A DNA stretch of 64,000 nt from Alcanivorax jadensis T9 (GTDB lineage: Bacteria > Pseudomonadota > Gammaproteobacteria > Pseudomonadales > Alcanivoracaceae), in assembly GCF_000756655.1 (NCBI RefSeq), contig NZ_ARXU01000016.1, positions 1-64,000 on the forward strand, given 5' to 3'. Shown here piece after piece: positions 35,658-43,557 of the stretch. Below the pieces are notes generated by a model. It was not told the origin of the DNA and did not search any database. It saw only the letters and a program-made list of their open reading frames with translations. The translations under genes and the position numbers were made by a program. Positions within the stretch are counted from its first letter, which is position 1. Each line of letters begins with the position of its first letter.

Positions 35658-36665
35658 TCACCCTTCCTGCAACAGTTTCCGCAGATCCACCAGTGCCGCA
35701 TTGGCGCGGGACACATAATTGGCCATCACCAGGGAATGGTTAGCCAGCATGCCAAATCCATCGCCGTTAAGAATCAGCGGACTCCACAGGGTTTCCTGGG
35801 TCGCTTCCAGCTCGCGTACCATCTGGCGAAAGCTGACAGTGGCGTTCTTTTTCCGTAGCACTTCGGCGAAGTCCACCTCGGCAGCACGCATCAACTGGGT
35901 CAACGCCCAGGTTGCGCCCCGTGCTTCATAAAACGCATCGTCGATTTTCAACCAGGGCGTTTTCACAAAGTCTTCTTCATTACCGGGCTTGGCAACGGAC
36001 TCGGCACTGCCCACATCCATATTCAGCTCACTGCGCCCCACACTCTGGCTCAATTTCAGGCTCAGGGAGCCCAGCCGGCTCTGCACTTCGTTGAGCCAGT
36101 AGTTGAGGTTATCCGCTCGGGCATAAAATTTGCCGTCGCCTTCGTTGGCATCGGTAAGGCGATCCAGATAGCTTTGCAGCGCCTTGATACCCCGGCGGTA
36201 TTCACTTTCCGTGGCGGGCATAGCCCAGCTCTGTGCATCAAAGTTGAATTGGGGCTCGGCAATGGCCAGATCCCGGTCTTCCTGACTCTGGGACTGGGAG
36301 CGACTCATATCCCGACGTAGCACCCGGGTAAAATCACGCACCTGCACCAGTACGCCGTACTCCCAGGCGGGCATGTTATCCATCCACAGACGGTGGGGCA
36401 GGATATCGTTACTGAGATAGCCTCCCGGCTTGGACAGCAAGGTGTCAGAAACGAAGATAAGTTCACGGGCAATGGTTTCGCCGGCGACCACGTTTTCGCG
36501 ACTGGGCAATTCACGCAGATCAGGCTCCTGGCTCCAGTACCAGCTCAGCAGAACATCCACCAGCAGTAGCAGCCCCAGCAACCACAGCACCCCTTTCCAA
36601 ATCCGGTTATGGCGGGGGTCGAGCATGGCGTCACCCATTTTTTCGCTGAATTTTTCGTTACTCAT
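35658..36665 (-). CDS. DUF2333 family membrane-anchored protein
   Basis: A 335-residue protein. One membrane helix at about 24-43 (KGVLWLLGLLLLVDVLLSWYW) anchors a large periplasmic domain with conserved WMDNMPAWEYGVLVQVRDF and ARADNLNYWLNEVQSRLGSLS segments. The family is common in gammaproteobacteria without a settled function. It starts 28 bases after the end of the sensor kinase gene on the same strand, so it may be read together with the redox operon, although it also occurs elsewhere without it. Confidence 0.8.
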   Translation of the reverse strand: MSNEKFSEKMGDAMLDPRHNRIWKGVLWLLGLLLLVDVLLSWYWSQEPDLRELPSRENVVAGETIARELIFVSDTLLSKPGGYLSNDILPHRLWMDNMPAWEYGVLVQVRDFTRVLRRDMSRSQSQSQEDRDLAIAEPQFNFDAQSWAMPATESEYRRGIKALQSYLDRLTDANEGDGKFYARADNLNYWLNEVQSRLGSLSLKLSQSVGRSELNMDVGSAESVAKPGNEEDFVKTPWLKIDDAFYEARGATWALTQLMRAAEVDFAEVLRKKNATVSFRQMVRELEATQETLWSPLILNGDGFGMLANHSLVMANYVSRANAALVDLRKLLQEG

Positions 36666-36693: not shown

Positions 36694-38034
36694 CTATAAC
36701 CCAGGCATTTCAGTAGCGGCAGGGAGTAACACGATAGCAGCTGCAGGAGAGTCCGCACACCGTTTACGATAAGACAGGCTTCCCCCATAGAGCGACAGGA
36801 TGCCGGTGACGATAGACAGCCCCAAACCCGCGCCATCCTTATCGGAGTGACCGCGGCTGAAACGTTCCCCATAGCGATGCCCCTGATCCTGGCTCAGACC
36901 TTCACCGCTGTCAGAAATCGCTATGCGCACGTGATTGCCCTGTTTCTCGGCGTTCACGCCAACGATACCAGGATCGGCATAGCGACAGGCGTTATCGACC
37001 AGATTGCGCAACACCAATCGCAGCGCCTCCTCGGGAATAGCTACCCAGAGGGAAGTATCCAGACACAACTCCAATTGCTGATGGAGACGATCCGCCACCG
37101 GCACCAGGGACGCCAGTGTTTCCCTCGCCACTCTCAATACGTCGACACAGCCACCCTTCTCAGGAGGCCCGAGAGCAGGATCCAGACGGGCCAGCACCAA
37201 AAGCTGCTCAAGCATGCGCTCAGCCCGCCCCACCGCCTCCTTCAGTGCCTGCAGAGAGGCTTCCCGCTGCTGAGGGTCAGGCAAGGAGATCGCATTCTCC
37301 ACGTGCAATTGCAATACCATCAGCAGGGTTCGCAATTCGTGGGCCGCGTCCGCAGTAAAACGCTTTTCTCGCTCAATACCGGCTTCCAGGCGCTCTAATA
37401 ATTGATTGATGGCCTCCTTCACTGGCTCCAACTCTCGCACTTTTTTGCCATCGGACAGCCGGGTCAAGTTATCCGGTGAACGTCTGCTTACTGAACGAGC
37501 AAGATCCGATAGAGGCGACAGGCCTACACGTATGGCCAGCCACACCAGCAACATGATGAAAGGCACGCTGATCAGATAAGGCGCCAACAACGAACCTGCC
37601 ACGTTCCTGACCATTGAGTGACGAGCATAATCACTCTCCGCCAGGATCAGCCAGCGCTCATTGGCCAGAGGCAGCGAATAAGCATGCCAGCCTTTTTTTT
37701 CCTGATACAGCGGCTGACTATTCAGCGCGATCAACGGCATCTCGGGAGAGCCCTCGCTGGCGGCGACCAGGTTGCCGTCTTGCCAGAGCTGATAGATGAA
37801 ATAACGCAGGTAGCGAGACTCCTGATTATCCAAAACCGACAGAGACGCATCTGGCGGATATCCCTCCCGCCAGAAACCCGCCAAGAGATGGGCGCTTTGC
37901 ACCAGCTCCGCGTCGTACTGCTCATCCAGTTCGTGATAAAGGGTTCGGTAGGCAAATAAAGCCTGTAACAGGCCACCTCCAACGATGACCATCAGCAGGG
38001 ACAAGATCAAAAAACGGCGAATGGAAAAAGTCAT
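36694..38034 (-). CDS. Sensor histidine kinase, QseC/PmrB-like
   Basis: A 446-residue membrane kinase. Membrane helices are near 8-28 and 150-170, with a periplasmic loop of about 120 residues between them. A HAMP-like linker follows. The H-box reads AAHELRTLLMVLQ with His232. The invariant proline of HELRTPL is replaced by Leu237. The ATP domain has the N-box NLVDNACRYA, the G1 box ISDSGEGL and GAGLGLSIV. It overlaps the response regulator gene by four bases. The signal is unknown, but the operon suggests an envelope redox or metal cue. Confidence 0.88.
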   Translation of the reverse strand: MTFSIRRFLILSLLMVIVGGGLLQALFAYRTLYHELDEQYDAELVQSAHLLAGFWREGYPPDASLSVLDNQESRYLRYFIYQLWQDGNLVAASEGSPEMPLIALNSQPLYQEKKGWHAYSLPLANERWLILAESDYARHSMVRNVAGSLLAPYLISVPFIMLLVWLAIRVGLSPLSDLARSVSRRSPDNLTRLSDGKKVRELEPVKEAINQLLERLEAGIEREKRFTADAAHELRTLLMVLQLHVENAISLPDPQQREASLQALKEAVGRAERMLEQLLVLARLDPALGPPEKGGCVDVLRVARETLASLVPVADRLHQQLELCLDTSLWVAIPEEALRLVLRNLVDNACRYADPGIVGVNAEKQGNHVRIAISDSGEGLSQDQGHRYGERFSRGHSDKDGAGLGLSIVTGILSLYGGSLSYRKRCADSPAAAIVLLPAATEMPGL

Positions 38035-38696
38035 CCCGTCTCACCCGCCAAGCTGTAACCCACCCCCCTGACCGTACGAATCAGACCACTCCCCAGCTTT
38101 TTACGTAAATGGTGGATATGTACTTCCAAAGCATTGCTTTCCACATCCTCGTTCCAGCCATACAGCCCCTGCTCAAGCTGGTCACGAGTAAGAACACGAC
38201 CACGATGGCGCACCAGCTGTAATAGCACACTCATTTCCCGTCGTGACAGGTTTACCGGCTCGCCGCCAAGTGTCACAAGGAACCGCTCGGCATCGATTTC
38301 CAGTTCACCGATCTTTAGCGTTTCCGTTCCCGGGGCTTCCCGACGGCGTAGTCGTGCACGAATCCGGGCGATCAGCTCCATAGAGGAAAACGGTTTCACC
38401 AGGTAGTCATCTGCCCCGCTATCCAGCCCGCTGATGCGGTCTTCCAGAGCATCTTTGGCACTGATGATAATCACCGGAATCTGTTTATCCTGTTGCCGCA
38501 AGGCTTTTAATGCAGCCAGGCCCTCCAGCCCAGGCAGGCCGAGATCTAGCAGCACCAGTGCAAAACCGCCGTCTTCCAGTGCCGGCATCACCAGATCACC
38601 CCGATCAATGTGATCCACCGTGTAACCTTCTGCACGGAGTGCACGCTGCAAGCCATCAGCTAACAGGGCGTCGTCCTCAACCAGTAGCAGGCGCAT
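38031..38696 (-). CDS. OmpR-family response regulator, QseB/PmrA-like
   Basis: A 221-residue regulator. The receiver (1-115) has VEDD at 6-9, the phospho-acceptor Asp51 in LLDLGLPG, and Lys in YLVKPFSS near 100. The winged helix DNA-binding domain (about 125-218) ends HIHHLRKKLGSGLIRTVRGVGYSL. The start at 38696 gives MRLLLVEDD; a longer frame upstream overlaps apbE and is not credible. It overlaps apbE by 20 bases and the kinase by four. A TTAA tandem array at 41581 fits what this subfamily binds. Confidence 0.9.
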   Translation of the reverse strand: MRLLLVEDDALLADGLQRALRAEGYTVDHIDRGDLVMPALEDGGFALVLLDLGLPGLEGLAALKALRQQDKQIPVIIISAKDALEDRISGLDSGADDYLVKPFSSMELIARIRARLRRREAPGTETLKIGELEIDAERFLVTLGGEPVNLSRREMSVLLQLVRHRGRVLTRDQLEQGLYGWNEDVESNALEVHIHHLRKKLGSGLIRTVRGVGYSLAGETG

Positions 38697-39582
38697 CGTC
38701 CCCCCATTGAATCCAGTATTGCGCACCGGCTTCATCAAGCAGGCGCTCGGCATCTTTTCCCTGCAAAATAGCCAGAGTTGAAAGCAGTCCTGCCTGGGTA
38801 CACTGTTGTCCAAATACGGTGACGGCACGGGGAGCACTGGAGACAGGCCAGCCGCTGCGCGGATCCAGCACATGACTGTAACGAATCCCGTCACGCAGTA
38901 AAAAACGGCGACTATCGCCGCTTGTGGCCAGCGCTCCGGTAGTGAATTGCAACCGCCCGGCCAGAGGCCTGGCGGTGCCCTCCATGCCGACCAACCAGGG
39001 TTCCTGCGAAGCCCGCCCCACCAGATCGCCGCCAAAGTTCACCAGCAGATCCGCCTCAGAGAGCTGTCCCGCCAGATTGAAAGCGCGATCAACCGCGTAC
39101 TCCTTACCGATACCACCAAGATCCAGCTCCATCCCTGCCTGCAAACGAATGCTATGAGCCCGCCGATCGACTTTCTGCCAACCCACCAATGGCAGCAAGG
39201 TATCGATCTGGGCCTGCTCGGGCAGACAGTCTGAGCCATCAAACTGCCAAGCACGGCGAAGCACCCCCGAGGTAATATCAAAGGCGCCCTCACTGAGTCG
39301 CCAACACTGATCGGCAAAATCCAGCAAACGAGCCGTCTCGTCATCCAGGGCCACCCACTGCCCGCTGGCGTTATTGATGGTCGCCATCAAATTGTCATCC
39401 CGATAGCGGGAAAACTTGTGCTCGATGCGCCAGACCTCTTCGGCCACACATTGGATCGACCGCCAGGCAAGGCTCTCGCTGACACCTCTAATCAGACATT
39501 CGCAGGGGCTGGCCATGGCAGCAAAACGGCCCCGCCAGAGAGGGCCATCCTGTTCCATGATGATATCTCTGCCCTGGCTCAT
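38677..39582 (-). CDS. apbE: FAD:protein FMN transferase, ApbE family
   Basis: A 301-residue enzyme that transfers FMN from FAD to Thr or Ser of target proteins. Family motifs are LDLGGIGKEYAVDRA (about 153-167), LLVNFGGDLVG (about 179-189), ATSGDSRRF and YSHVLDPRSGWPV, the last with the metal-binding residues. No signal peptide or lipobox precedes the first family strand (FAAMASPCECLI at 20-31), and GGAG upstream supports the chosen start. The enzyme is therefore predicted cytosolic, unlike most ApbE lipoproteins. It lies 19 bases after DUF3570 in the same operon, and that protein is its likely substrate. Confidence 0.92.
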   Translation of the reverse strand: MSQGRDIIMEQDGPLWRGRFAAMASPCECLIRGVSESLAWRSIQCVAEEVWRIEHKFSRYRDDNLMATINNASGQWVALDDETARLLDFADQCWRLSEGAFDITSGVLRRAWQFDGSDCLPEQAQIDTLLPLVGWQKVDRRAHSIRLQAGMELDLGGIGKEYAVDRAFNLAGQLSEADLLVNFGGDLVGRASQEPWLVGMEGTARPLAGRLQFTTGALATSGDSRRFLLRDGIRYSHVLDPRSGWPVSSAPRAVTVFGQQCTQAGLLSTLAILQGKDAERLLDEAGAQYWIQWGDDAPATG

Positions 39583-39601
39583 ACGGGCTCCATCGCAACG
39601 A

Positions 39602-40858
39602 TTACCAATAGAAGGTATACCCGACCTGCGTAATCAGCGCATCCAATTCCGAGGCATCACTGTCACCGCTCTGCTGGAAGCTTTCCACGCGCAAGCTCAG
39701 CTGCTGGTTGTTCTTCCACTGCTTGCCAACCTTCACCCCATAGGTGGTATCGGTAAGATTGCCCAAGCGATAATCCGCCGACACTTCGTCGAGAGAGCCC
39801 ACCTGCGCAGCAGTAACAGATTCCTGGTAGAAATCGGCTTCCCCCTGGTCATACCAGCGCACATGCGGTTGCAGGAACCAGCCATTGTCGAACTGAAAGC
39901 GATATTTCACATCCAGAGTATGTGACGTAATGCCCCAATCGTCCGACATGAAACGATAGCCCACCGCCAGCACATCACGATTGAAGTGATAGCGATTCTC
40001 CCAATAAAGCGCATTTTTGGTGCGTGAATCCGGCCGCAATTCGAAAATTTGGGCGTCGCCGGCACCAATGTCCATCGCACCAAAACTCTCCGCTTCCAGC
40101 GGGTCGCCATTGGCACCAACCACAGTGACGATTTTGTAGGGATCAGTGTGATAACCATCCGAGACCGACACGTTGTAATTTAGCTGCATCAACCAGTTAC
40201 GGTTGATCACCTGGGTAACACCAAACAGCAAATCATTGATTGAACGGTCTTCCGAACCATCGGTTTTCTGCTGATCACTCTGGAAAGTCAGCCCCACCGG
40301 GCTACCCCCTACCGGATCAATGGTGTCCGCCTCATGGGCCAGACCAAAAGTCAGGGTCGTATTTTTGTTGTTCAGGTCCCACAACAGGCCGGCATTAAGG
40401 CCCATGGAGGTAAAGTCATACTCGTTTGAAAAGTTCATTCCTGCAGTCCAGCGTAACGTCCGGCTGAACGGACGCGTATACTGCATGTTGGCAGCAACCC
40501 GGGTATCTTTGAAAGAGTCATCCAGCGGCACTTCGTTAGTGACCTGGTATTGCTGACCGCCTGACGGGGACGTAAAGGTCTGCGGCTTGTCTGATTTGAT
40601 TGCCCCGTTATGGGAAGCACCGGTCAACGAATCCAGTGTCAGCTTGAGCTCCAGCTCGCTGTCATCGGAAAACTGTTTCTTGCCGCGCACCACCGGCTCA
40701 ACCGCCGTGACTCGATCTTTCTCGCTATAATAAAGCACGGCAGAGTCGAACTGCCAGGCATCCGCATCCCCCTGGGCCAGGGCAGGCTGCCCCAGCAAGG
40801 CGCAAGTTGCAGCGGCAATTCCGACACCGATTTGTTTTCCATCCAGTTTCTTTTGCAT
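39602..40858 (-). CDS. DUF3570 outer-membrane protein, candidate flavinylation target
   Basis: A 418-residue secreted protein. The signal peptide covers about 1-28 (AATCALLGQPALA, then cleavage before QG). The rest is rich in alternating strands, with Tyr/Trp-rich ends and a C-terminal QVGYTFYW, whose final aromatic residue is typical of outer-membrane barrels. Near the start, residues 76-82 read DSLTGAS, matching the Dxx(S/T)GA(S/T) motif modified by ApbE. The ATG at 40858 fits the GAGG spacing better than 40864. It lies between the DUF4266 lipoprotein and apbE. The function is unknown to me; an FMN-bearing barrel is inferred. Confidence 0.85.
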   Translation of the reverse strand: MQKKLDGKQIGVGIAAATCALLGQPALAQGDADAWQFDSAVLYYSEKDRVTAVEPVVRGKKQFSDDSELELKLTLDSLTGASHNGAIKSDKPQTFTSPSGGQQYQVTNEVPLDDSFKDTRVAANMQYTRPFSRTLRWTAGMNFSNEYDFTSMGLNAGLLWDLNNKNTTLTFGLAHEADTIDPVGGSPVGLTFQSDQQKTDGSEDRSINDLLFGVTQVINRNWLMQLNYNVSVSDGYHTDPYKIVTVVGANGDPLEAESFGAMDIGAGDAQIFELRPDSRTKNALYWENRYHFNRDVLAVGYRFMSDDWGITSHTLDVKYRFQFDNGWFLQPHVRWYDQGEADFYQESVTAAQVGSLDEVSADYRLGNLTDTTYGVKVGKQWKNNQQLSLRVESFQQSGDSDASELDALITQVGYTFYW

Positions 40859-40868
40859 TGTCATTCCC

Positions 40869-41096
40869 TCAGTTACAGCCGCAGCCACCACCACCAAAAC
40901 CGCGCCCACCACTGGACGCTTCCTTGCTGAAATAGATGTGATCATCCAAAGCATCATCCAGACCGTCAGCAGCGCCAGGTGTCATCACCGGCTTGGCCAT
41001 AAGGTCCCTCTGCCAGGGCTGAACGCCGAGATTTTGACAACCGCTCAAGCCAGCCAGTGCAGCCAGCAGTACGGTAAAGGTAAATAGGGTTTTCAT
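40869..41096 (-). CDS. DUF4266 small lipoprotein with C-terminal Cys-Gly-Cys-Asn
   Basis: A 75-residue lipoprotein. The lipobox LSGC puts the acylated cysteine at 20. The mature peptide contains VQPWQRDLMAKPVM and DHIYFSKEASSGG, the DUF4266 signature, and ends in a glycine run followed by CGCN (Cys72, Cys74). The two cysteines at the extreme end could bind metal or form a disulfide, and the thioredoxin encoded next to it may act on them. It overlaps the thioredoxin gene by four bases and lies ten bases before the DUF3570 start. Confidence 0.88.
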   Translation of the reverse strand: MKTLFTFTVLLAALAGLSGCQNLGVQPWQRDLMAKPVMTPGAADGLDDALDDHIYFSKEASSGGRGFGGGGCGCN

Positions 41097-41539
41097 TGTT
41101 GAGACTCCATCAGACGGACGATTTCCTTCTCGTATTTGTCGCTATGCTTGGCGACAAAACCGATATGCCTGGATAGCTCGCTTCCGTTTGCCGCCAGTAA
41201 CACTGCGCTCGGCATTCCCTCTAGTTGATATCGGGAAGCCAATTCGCCATGAGGATCAAACACCAACGGAAATAGGGCTGGATAACTGGCCAGGAATCGC
41301 TCGGCATCAGCCCTCTCCTGATCTACATTGATACCAATCACCGTAAACCCCTGATCGCCATATTTTTCCTGCATTTGATTGAGCCAGGGAAAGGAACGAC
41401 GGCAAGGCACACACCAGCTGGCCCAGAAGTCCACGTAAATCACTTTTGCGTCACCGACCTGCTCCGGCGAGAATGGAAGGGGATCGGCATGGGCTAGCCA
41501 GGGAATGGCCAGCAGAACAAGCACCCGTAAATAGCGCAT
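41093..41539 (-). CDS. Periplasmic TlpA-like thioredoxin
   Basis: A 148-residue exported thiol-disulfide protein. The signal peptide covers about 1-18, ending AHA. The active site is WASWCVPCRRS (Cys43, Cys46) and the cis-Pro lies in EGMPSAVLL. It is the first gene of a six-gene minus-strand operon and divergent from dsbD, which could keep it reduced. Its probable target is the C-terminal cysteine pair of the DUF4266 lipoprotein. GGAGAGCCTC precedes the ATG. Confidence 0.9.
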   Translation of the reverse strand: MRYLRVLVLLAIPWLAHADPLPFSPEQVGDAKVIYVDFWASWCVPCRRSFPWLNQMQEKYGDQGFTVIGINVDQERADAERFLASYPALFPLVFDPHGELASRYQLEGMPSAVLLAANGSELSRHIGFVAKHSDKYEKEIVRLMESQQ

Positions 41540-41685: not shown

Positions 41686-43557
41686 ATGCAGAACAGCTGG
41701 CAGCGACTGGGGCTTTTTCTTTCACTGTTTTGTTTATGGCCTATTGCCATCGCGCAAGACCTGTTTGGCGAGCAGCCTCTTCCTGGCGTCGATGAAGCCA
41801 TTCAATTGATCACCGATGCAGACTGGGACAACCAGCAACTGCTGCTGGATTTCGAGCTTATGGAGGACGTTTACCTCTATCAGCACCGTTTCGGCTTCAG
41901 CCTGCGTGACCAGAACGGCAACGTGCTGGAGGATTTCGCTGACTACGCCCTGCCTCCCGGCAAGGACAAGACCGACGAGATTTTCGGGGATGTGGAGGTG
42001 TACTACGACCGGCTTACCCTGAACTTGCCAGTGACCAGCGTACCGCTGGTGGCGACCGAGCTGGAGGTGCGCTACCAGGGCTGCATCGAGGACACCCTGT
42101 GCTACCCGCCCACCAGGAAAGTCATCCCGCTGGCCAACCCGTCACCGGCAAAAAAGCCCCCGGCCGCTCAGGCGGCCCGCCCCGCTGATACCACCAGCAG
42201 CAATAACGATGACGGCGGCTTCCTCAGCACCCTGCAATCCGACGATGCCAACGCCTTCAACCGCTGGATGAACGACCGCTCCCTGGGCCTGGTAATCGGC
42301 CTCTTTTTTGTCGGCGGGCTGCTGCTGGCGTTCACCCCTTGCGTGTTCCCCATGGTGCCGATTCTGTCCGGCATTATTGCCGGCGAGAAGGAGCCCAGTG
42401 CCAGCCGTGGCTTTGTACTAAGTACCAGCTATGTGCTGGGCATGGCGGTGCCCTATACCTTTGCCGGCCTGCTGGTTGCGGTATTTGGCGCCGGGCTCAA
42501 CCTGCAATTTATGTTGCAACAGCCAGCGGCCATCATTACTTCCACCGTGATCTTCGTGCTGCTGGCGCTGTCCATGTTCGGCCTTTATGAGCTGCAACTG
42601 CCCGCCTTTCTGCGTAACAAGTTGCACCAGCCCGGCGAGAGCAAGCGCGGCAGCCTTTTCGGTGCCGCTATCATGGGGGCCATCTCTGCCCTGGTCGTGT
42701 CTCCCTGTGTTACCCCGATTTTGGCCGGTGCACTGATCTATGTGGCCGCGAGCGGTGATGCCCTCACCGGCGCCGCCTCCCTGTTTGCCCTGTCCATGGG
42801 CATGGGCTTGCCGCTGATCATCTTTGGCACCGGCGGCGGCAGCTTGCTGCCCCGGGCCGGCATGTGGATGGAAGAGATCAAACGCTTCTTCGGGGTGGTC
42901 ATGCTCGGTGTTGCCATCTGGCTTCTGGATCGCATCATCAACGGCACCATTACCCTGGGCCTTTACGGCTTGCTTCTGGCGGTCTACGGCGTGCAGCTCG
43001 GCGCTCTGGAAGCCGCCGGCGAAGGCATCGCCCGGCTCAAGCGCGGCATCGCCCTGGTGCTGGCCCTGTATGGCTCGGTGATGATCGTTGGTGCGCTCAG
43101 TGGCGGCGACGATCCACTCCAGCCCCTGGCGCCGATGACGCAATCGGCACCGGCCGCGGCCACCGCCAGTGCCCCGGGGGACCACGGGCCCTGGCAAACC
43201 ATCTTGGGACGCGACAATCTGGGCACCGCCCTGGCTAATTCCCGCCAGGCAGGCAAACCGGTGCTGGTGGATTTCTTTGCCGAGTGGTGTGTGGCCTGCA
43301 AAATACTGGAGGAAACCACCCTCAGCGACCCGCAGGTACTCGCCGCCATGAAAGACTTCGATCTCTACCGGGTGGACATCACCGAGATCAACGCGGACAG
43401 CCAGGCGATCATGGAGCAATACAACATCCTCGGCCTGCCGGCGCTGGTGTTCTTCACCCCGGAAGGCATGGAACTACCGGAATCCCGGGTGCTGGGGGAA
43501 ATGAAGCCGGACCGGTTTCTGGAACACCTGGATAAGCGGGTTATGCCGGGGCTGTAG
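41686..43557 (+). CDS. dsbD: Thiol:disulfide interchange protein DsbD
   Basis: Carries electrons from cytosolic thioredoxin across the inner membrane to periplasmic thiol proteins. It has 623 residues: signal peptide (about 1-23), periplasmic alpha domain with the cysteine pair in GCIEDTLCYPP, eight membrane helices with the two cysteines in FTPCVFPMVP and VVSPCVTPIL, and a C-terminal thioredoxin domain with EWCVACK. All redox cysteines are intact. GAGGAGACAGTA precedes ATG 41686. It is divergent from the TlpA-like gene, a plausible electron acceptor. Confidence 0.95.
   Translation: MQNSWQRLGLFLSLFCLWPIAIAQDLFGEQPLPGVDEAIQLITDADWDNQQLLLDFELMEDVYLYQHRFGFSLRDQNGNVLEDFADYALPPGKDKTDEIFGDVEVYYDRLTLNLPVTSVPLVATELEVRYQGCIEDTLCYPPTRKVIPLANPSPAKKPPAAQAARPADTTSSNNDDGGFLSTLQSDDANAFNRWMNDRSLGLVIGLFFVGGLLLAFTPCVFPMVPILSGIIAGEKEPSASRGFVLSTSYVLGMAVPYTFAGLLVAVFGAGLNLQFMLQQPAAIITSTVIFVLLALSMFGLYELQLPAFLRNKLHQPGESKRGSLFGAAIMGAISALVVSPCVTPILAGALIYVAASGDALTGAASLFALSMGMGLPLIIFGTGGGSLLPRAGMWMEEIKRFFGVVMLGVAIWLLDRIINGTITLGLYGLLLAVYGVQLGALEAAGEGIARLKRGIALVLALYGSVMIVGALSGGDDPLQPLAPMTQSAPAAATASAPGDHGPWQTILGRDNLGTALANSRQAGKPVLVDFFAEWCVACKILEETTLSDPQVLAAMKDFDLYRVDITEINADSQAIMEQYNILGLPALVFFTPEGMELPESRVLGEMKPDRFLEHLDKRVMPGL

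Follow-up and report, generated by a model that had tools for sequence, protein, structure and literature searches.

The gene set formed by apbE, DUF3570, DUF4266 and a thioredoxin-like gene, often accompanied by dsbD, was described in 2021 (Meheust et al., PMC8238504). For example, in the portion of that work available here, the DUF3570 protein of Chlorobium luteolum has been reported to be flavinylated by its ApbE at two motifs, DsbD was proposed as the electron source of DUF3570 clusters, and a PF13899 thioredoxin was counted in 183 of 285 DsbD clusters, being typical but not required (PMC8238504). The present work deals with a cluster of this kind in Alcanivorax jadensis T9, at positions 36694-41539 of a stretch of 64,000 nucleotides (contig NZ_ARXU01000016.1 of assembly GCF_000756655.1, positions 1 to 64,000), hereafter called the window. 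It resembles the published clusters in its ApbE, its DUF3570, its DUF4266 with a CXC end, its thioredoxin-like protein, its DsbD and its [ST]GA[ST] motif, and differs from them in having one strict motif instead of two, a thioredoxin of the Redoxin/TlpA kind instead of PF13899, and an appended two-component system. A first-pass annotation of the window had proposed a flavinylated DUF3570 protein at the outer membrane and had added that no function was known for the set. The latter statement has to be dropped, since the set is in print together with DsbD and the CXC end of DUF4266 (PMC8238504); the core idea of a flavinylated DUF3570 is right but already known. What is new is the cytosolic type of the ApbE with an exchange of residues at its active site, a predicted flavin site on the outer side of the membrane, and the division of DUF3570 loci into two classes, none of which was found reported in the open-licence literature searched, as far as its accessible text goes. 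PMC8238504 was the single paper returned for DUF3570, DUF4266 or their Pfam numbers. The word barrel occurs zero times in its main text, and in the passages at hand nothing was seen on a barrel fold of DUF3570 or on the topology or the residue exchange of DUF3570-linked ApbEs; the term DUF3570 is absent from two further ApbE papers (PMC11334425 and PMC12052999).

Loci compared

The window was compared within a set of 76 loci, namely the window itself, seven loci from a search for relatives with a single protein and 68 places with a PF12094 match. Half of them (38/76) come from the window's own family and nearly all belong to the Pseudomonadota through sampling, and the rows are not independent. 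Loci with apbE at most 1.2 kb from the DUF3570 gene are called type I (41/76), and the remaining 35/76 form the second class. Genes were delimited by a simple longest open reading frame (ORF) rule and neighbours by clustering, and neighbour counts are approximate. Signal peptides were scored by a mean hydropathy of at least 2.0 over a stretch of 10 residues (1.5 in a lax version) rather than on the basis of SignalP; the scan covered the region upstream of the core in stop-to-stop frames for ApbE, and ran from the aligned start for DUF3570. The 43 ApbEs of the loci include 41 that adjoin DUF3570 and two that do not (L131 and L133), and they were set against 31 control ApbEs, two of them the other ApbEs of the window's own genome and 29 from high-scoring loci, a choice in which weak ApbE relatives are not represented. 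A search among plasmids gave three records from Vibrio with an identity of 26%.

The ApbE of type I loci

The ApbE-type transferase of the window, which moves flavin mononucleotide (FMN) from flavin adenine dinucleotide (FAD) to proteins, is encoded on the minus strand at 38677-39582 (PF02424, E 7.2e-61, 206.5 bits against a gathering score of 25.6). Judged from its sequence, this enzyme is probably cytosolic and not an envelope protein. In its stop-to-stop frame the most hydrophobic stretch of 10 residues upstream of the core reaches 0.36, and there is no lipobox. Among the ApbEs of the loci the signal-peptide rule at 2.0 is passed by 1/43, compared with 28 of the 31 controls; the single case, L122, has a hydrophobic stretch in which no cleavage site was seen. 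At the lax threshold of 1.5 the counts are 5/43 and 29/31, the four additional ApbEs having stretches that are short by eye and, in some cases, upstream of the likely start. The first-pass annotation had assigned a dedicated ApbE, a thioredoxin and a Cys-tailed lipoprotein to the service of the outer-membrane protein; all these genes are present, but the ApbE, with no signal peptide to be seen, probably does not reside in the envelope.

The active site is also unusual. Alignment with the ApbE of Vibrio cholerae through the Protein Data Bank (PDB) places Ser241, His257 and Asp285 of that enzyme at Ser221, His237 and Gly265 of the window protein (the offset of 16 in the chain numbering of 6NXI is our own reckoning). 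These three are the conserved active-site residues Asp285-Ser241-His257 according to the accessible text of PMC12052999. Thus, the window enzyme retains Ser and His but has lost the Asp, and a Glu (Glu161) stands in the place of the Gly of the AKG motif. From these sequences we infer that the catalytic carboxylate has moved from the place of the triad Asp to Glu161. The pair of Glu in the AKG place and Gly in the Asp place was found by alignment in 40 of the 43 ApbEs; L119 was unaligned and has Glu/Gly by eye, and L131 and L133 have Gly/Glu. All 41 ApbEs that adjoin DUF3570 are therefore Glu/Gly, one of them by eye. Gly/Asp is the pair in 30/31 controls, the exception (L153) being Glu/Gly and also failing the signal-peptide rule; two other controls (L155 and L156) fail the rule at 2.0 yet are Gly/Asp, and the two features are not strictly tied. 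In a tree of 78 ApbEs, from which L119 and L131 were left out, the 45 Glu/Gly rows make up one side of a branch with support 100/98, in a run for which the program warned of long branches, above all L122. Two cysteines of the window ApbE, Cys27 and Cys261, are kept in 37/43 and 36/43 ApbEs of the loci and in 1/31 and 3/31 controls, respectively.

The enzyme of V. cholerae (PDB 6NXI) and its periplasmic kin share with that of the window the PF02424 domain and the Ser and His of the triad, and differ from it in that no signal peptide or lipid anchor is seen in the window protein, Asp285 is replaced by Gly265 and the AKG Gly by Glu161. A term search of PMC4767422 gave nothing on metal-site residues. 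A cytosolic ApbE has been described in Klebsiella pneumoniae, likewise without signal peptide; its substrate is a soluble fumarate reductase, whereas the neighbouring substrate in the window looks exported (PMC12052999, as far as seen).

Enzymes of the Glu/Gly type have another kind of neighbour as well. Five genomes have such an ApbE but no PF12094 match, and in three of them it adjoins small EF-hand proteins whose N-terminal part reads PQ[AV]x[ST]GAS (L203:9367-9780 on the minus strand, L202:7688-8023 and L201:4140-4541 on the plus strand); L209, L223, L224 and L225 hold EF-hand proteins of the same kind. As for the other two, in G134 the EF-hand proteins lie on other contigs than the Glu/Gly ApbE, one of them with SGAR, and in G190 none was found. 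EF-hand matches with E below 1e-20 occur in four of 398 genomes, namely the three with adjoining genes and G134, and in 17/398 at E 0.001; two wider searches for further EF-hand partners of ApbE gave none. To judge from the motif and the neighbourhood, these EF-hand proteins may be unreported substrates of cytosolic ApbE; the only paper listed for ApbE, flavinylation and EF-hand together mentions each a single time and deals with a glucose-binding lipoprotein.

The flavinylation motif of DUF3570

The DUF3570 gene of the window (39602-40864, minus strand; PF12094, E 4.2e-123) encodes a predicted outer-membrane barrel with the motif DSLTGAS at 40613-40633 of the same strand, on whose last residue, Ser84, FMN is expected. 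The motif comprises residues 78-84 counted from the first ATG (MTMQKK) and 76-82 from the second (MQKK), the latter being the numbering of the first-pass annotation, which had correctly placed the motif at these bases with apbE as the next gene. The window protein holds one strict D..[ST]GA[ST] motif, and such a motif arises by chance in 0.43% of 20,000 shuffles of its mature part. Alignment of DUF3570 relatives bears out the proposed conservation: a strict motif is present anywhere in the protein in 37/41 type I loci, the window counted, as against 6/35 others (Fisher p 5e-11, a descriptive value only, given that all rows of the second group but L124 belong to a single clade). The first site, as aligned, has the strict match in 34/41 and 5/35, respectively; three type I rows (L128, L129 and L132) have their strict motif away from this site. 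The Gly there is kept in 41/41 type I loci and in 5/35 others, and the D, S/T, A and terminal S are kept in all 35 loci lacking an adjacent apbE. The expected clustering of apbE with DUF3570 is also seen, apbE lying within 1.2 kb in 41/76 loci when the window's own genome has three apbE genes in 3.6 Mb, figures that carry no formal chance estimate.

That DUF3570 is a substrate of ApbE agrees with the covalent flavinylation published for the Chlorobium relative (PMC8238504). On the basis of its motif, the window DUF3570 thus probably carries covalent FMN at Ser84. In the available text of the same work, the cloning of the C. luteolum pair followed a strategy similar to the one used for a signal-peptide-truncated pair, and the DUF3570 protein was recovered mostly in the pellet (PMC8238504). 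It seems, then, that a cytosolic and probably unfolded DUF3570 was accepted as ApbE substrate in this co-expression.

Predicted export and barrel topology of DUF3570

Both inspection by eye and the hydrophobicity score (2.11) give the window DUF3570 a Sec signal peptide, and its mature part is free of Cys. Across the set, the N-terminus reaches 1.5 in 75/76 proteins (40/41 of type I and 35/35 others) and 2.0 in 57/76 (23/41 and 34/35). The signals of type I (e.g., 40726-40864 in the window) are thus weaker in hydrophobicity than their counterparts in the second clade, and many in both start with M.MQL. This weakness would be in keeping with a slow, post-translational export, which might give a cytosolic ApbE time to act.

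The barrel-like C-terminus pointed out in the first-pass annotation recurs in relatives: the last residue is aromatic or His in 75/76 DUF3570 proteins, all but a fragment from a broken copy, and 72/76 have a beta-signal-like end. There is no Cys after residue 60 in 74/76. Sixteen strands were placed from an amphipathicity profile over the type I rows. The median length is 2-5 residues for the seven gaps from even to odd strands, taken as inner turns, and 5-43 for the eight gaps from odd to even strands, taken as outer loops (26/41 type I rows, the most divergent omitted). Three of these eight loops, with medians of 5, 6 and 7, are also short, and one inner turn reaches 11 residues in some rows. 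With the N-terminus inside, this topology puts DSLTGAS at the outer end of strand 3, where an outer segment of 42-68 residues starts, and the second motif site of relatives such as L121 lies close to where that segment ends. Both flavin sites would in this way flank one outer loop. DUF3570 would thus be a porin-like outer-membrane barrel with its flavin site on the outer side. A sequence search of the PDB with the DUF3570 profile returned only a chance-level match, to a viral capsid protein (E 0.13).

Two loci have DUF3570 frames of unusual form. In L118 (6890-9628) the protein is part of a frame of 912 residues with a C-terminal extension that is His-rich at its start and has by eye the look of a second barrel. 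In L082 (6947-8319) a type I DUF3570 is split in two frames, and its ApbE, DUF4266 and thioredoxin gene are of usual length.

Probable thiol partners and gene order in the window

Gene order and product names were taken from Pfam and NCBIfam profile matches and from reading of the ORFs. Six genes of the minus strand are tightly coupled, as had been annotated and as a second reading of the sequence and Pfam agree. The operon starts with a periplasmic thioredoxin-like protein of the TlpA/ResA type (41093-41539, minus strand; WCVPC; Pfam Redoxin, AhpC-TSA and Thioredoxin_8), which has a Sec signal peptide by eye and matches the NCBIfam models for ResA, TlpA and DsbE under their cut-off. It has no PF13899 match at E 0.001, a miss that is read as a difference of subfamily, the protein still being thioredoxin-like with its WCVPC. 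Next comes a small DUF4266 lipoprotein (40869-41096, minus strand; PF14086, E 1.1e-20) with the lipobox LSGC and the C-terminus GGGGCGCN. Downstream of DUF3570 and apbE lie an OmpR-family response regulator (38031-38696, minus strand; nearest models PmrA/QseB) and a sensor histidine kinase (36694-38034, minus strand; nearest models QseC/PmrB), both under the cut-offs. From the thioredoxin gene to the kinase gene, the junctions are a 4-base overlap, a 4-base gap, a 19-base gap, a 20-base overlap and a 4-base overlap.

A dsbD gene (41686-43557, plus strand; PF02683, E 6e-85; NCBIfam DsbD over cut-off), whose start at ATG 41686 was picked by hand, is divergent from the operon and 146 bases off the thioredoxin gene. 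It is part of the gene set and was absent from the first-pass annotation. On the other side, the DUF2333 gene 3' of the operon (35658-36665, minus strand; PF10095) is probably a neighbour rather than a member of the set; in 11 loci a DUF2333-like gene follows DUF3570 at a distance of about 2.9 kb. Two-component genes 3' of apbE are found in all 13 type I loci of the window's family, and also in L109 and L111.

A DUF4266 gene is present in all 76 loci, and a thioredoxin-like gene in 74. The DUF4266 end GGCGC[NSY] is common to 76/76; the lipobox pattern is matched in 65/76, and of the remaining 11 all except two resemble lipoproteins by eye. Because the barrel is devoid of thiols, the CGC tail of DUF4266 is most likely the partner of the thioredoxin. 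A DsbD-like gene of more than 300 residues lies in the fetched stretch of 21/41 type I loci and of 0/35 others; DsbD beside type I loci is likely to be the electron source, as had been proposed (PMC8238504). Two other neighbours also separate the classes within 5 kb of DUF3570: a histidine kinase or response regulator (26/41 of type I as against 1/35 others) and an ORF with at least two CXXCH (1/41 as against 34/35). In the window there is no ORF with CXXCH within 5 kb of DUF3570.

A second class of DUF3570 loci

The 35 loci without adjacent apbE form a single clade of the DUF3570 tree (support 100/100), except L124, which sits on a long branch in an unsure place. This tree contains 33 rows of the clade, with L099 omitted as a near-copy, and omits L082, L006, L008, L076 and L081 on the type I side. 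The second class carries, among others, an HZS_alpha/PD40 lipoprotein with two CXXCH and one or two small barrel-like proteins.

A simple absence of flavinylation in these loci was considered. This idea is weakened by the presence of ApbE in 19/19 genomes tested, which are those, out of 34 with second-class loci, in which no type I locus was found. In 15 of the 19, ApbE is encoded on the same contig, 10.6-11.6 kb from the second-class DUF3570; in the other four it is 100 kb off (G231) or on another contig (G386 and G412, and G046, where it is the only one). The second-class motifs, D-x-[VI]-[ST]-[AS]-A-S, could be modified. In another ApbE substrate, about 50% of the flavinylation remains after a Gly-to-Ala change, according to the accessible text of PMC12052999.

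Fourteen ApbEs of the second class were examined: L069 from the window's own genome, L248-L258 from 11 of the 15 genomes, and L204 and L205 from two further genomes. Twelve of them (L069 and L248-L258) have a signal-peptide-like stretch, and 11 of these 12 have AKG with Asp, L252 being unscored by the pattern. In L204 the stretch that satisfies the rule lies at the likely start or ahead of it, L205 fails the rule, and both have AKG with Glu in the place of Asp. In these two loci (L204:9131-10144 and L205:4651-5709), the ApbE gene lies directly upstream of, and overlaps, a dihaem-type lipoprotein gene and shows no clear signal peptide.

The window's own genome has a second cluster on contig C2 (L097:9836-17224 and L139:239-6507), in which Pfam names were taken from relatives. 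One half contains an HZS_alpha/PD40-type dihaem lipoprotein, barrel-like proteins, a thioredoxin, DUF4266 and a DUF3570 with DEVSAAS; the divergent half encodes CXXCH proteins, another protein whose start is Tat-like and, at its end, an exported ApbE.

A proposed route of flavinylation and electron transfer

The reading that is favoured, if only by a modest degree, is that DUF3570 is flavinylated in the cytosol before Sec export and then takes electrons from thiols at the outer membrane. A cytosolic ApbE combined with an exported substrate suggests that the modification precedes export. A cytosolic ApbE of the Glu/Gly clade would attach FMN to the DUF3570 precursor at Ser84, either ahead of its entry into the Sec pathway or during it, and DUF3570 would fold in the outer membrane as a porin-like barrel whose flavin is close to the outer end of strand 3. 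Electrons would pass from cytosolic thioredoxin to DsbD, and from there through the TlpA-like protein and the C-terminal Cys-Gly-Cys of DUF4266 to the flavin, which would hand them to an acceptor outside the cell, either Fe(III) or another oxidant. The two-component system would control the operon. Porin-cytochrome conduits of the MtrCAB type lead electrons through an outer-membrane barrel, and a barrel route in the window would work similarly; unlike these conduits, type I loci have no multihaem cytochrome neighbours, apart from the single locus with an ORF of at least two CXXCH. A fuller version, which is tentative and as a whole rather doubtful, would combine a cytosolically flavinylated barrel, an ApbE with moved carboxylate, FMN near the surface and a CGC tail of DUF4266, perhaps inside the barrel, relaying electrons of DsbD and TlpA, in a haem-free thiol-flavin route across the outer membrane, with a sister clade in which a barrel of this kind is paired with dihaem lipoproteins and with an ApbE that is exported.

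Several points weigh against cytosolic flavinylation followed by thiol-to-flavin transfer. We know of no precedent for electron transfer from a CXC motif to flavin. The calls on signal peptides come from a hydrophobicity rule, and the strands of DUF3570 were placed by hand from an amphipathicity profile, not from a structure model. By the rule at 2.0, 18/41 type I DUF3570 proteins fail as exported, though they have AxA-like ends by eye. The strict motif is missing in spite of an adjacent apbE in L080 and L081 (both TGNS), L112 (TGSS) and L123. Finally, the wording of PMC8238504, in the text available, suggests a signal peptide on the Chlorobium ApbE; because of this, only certain lineages may have the cytosolic form.

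Alternative explanations

Flavinylation might instead be periplasmic, either because the window ApbE is exported by an unrecognised route or because the exported ApbEs of the same genome act on DUF3570. Most ApbEs are secreted and act on secreted targets (PMC12052999, as far as seen), and the genome does have two further ApbEs with signal peptides; the position of apbE 19 bases behind DUF3570, the distinct residue pair and clade of type I ApbEs and the lack of a strong hydrophobic stretch upstream of the core, over the whole stop-to-stop frame, in 42 of the 43 ApbEs of the loci all speak against it, and make this alternative unlikely. Another view gives the motif a mainly structural role and takes the Glu/Gly ApbE as inactive or otherwise employed, e.g., in FAD hydrolysis. 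The invariance of D, S/T, A and S in the 35 loci without adjacent apbE, with only the Gly varying, would suit a structural role, and the loss of the triad Asp an inactive enzyme. However, that Gly is kept in every locus with an adjacent apbE (41/41), the triad Ser and His are retained in the window ApbE, the loss of Asp is paired with a new Glu in every aligned row, and enzymes of this class also stand beside EF-hand proteins with [ST]GAS in three of the five genomes that have the class but no DUF3570, all of which leaves the structural view very improbable.

The electron path can be questioned separately from the site of flavinylation. Thioredoxin, DUF4266 and DsbD might form a branch for redox-controlled assembly or sensing, in which, for example, the lipoprotein stays in reduced form up to its association with the barrel, and the flavin would be fed from elsewhere. 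Such a branch would agree with the mature DUF3570 being Cys-free in 74/76 and with the persistence of thioredoxin and DUF4266 in the cytochrome-rich clade, where no DsbD-like gene is nearby (0/35); the same distribution turns against it when read from the other side, as DsbD co-localises with type I only (21/41 as against 0/35), and assembly or sensing is rather unlikely, though a degree less so than periplasmic flavinylation.

Biological significance

If cytosolic flavinylation followed by thiol-to-flavin transfer is true, a covalent flavin could be added to a protein before it crosses the inner membrane, and this class would need no periplasmic supply of FAD. A flavin could then also take part in moving electrons at the outer membrane, a task for which haem conduits are the familiar example. 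As a sequence test, the Glu/Gly signature may tell cytosolic-type ApbEs from exported ones, and A. jadensis T9 holds both kinds of ApbE in one genome for direct comparison.

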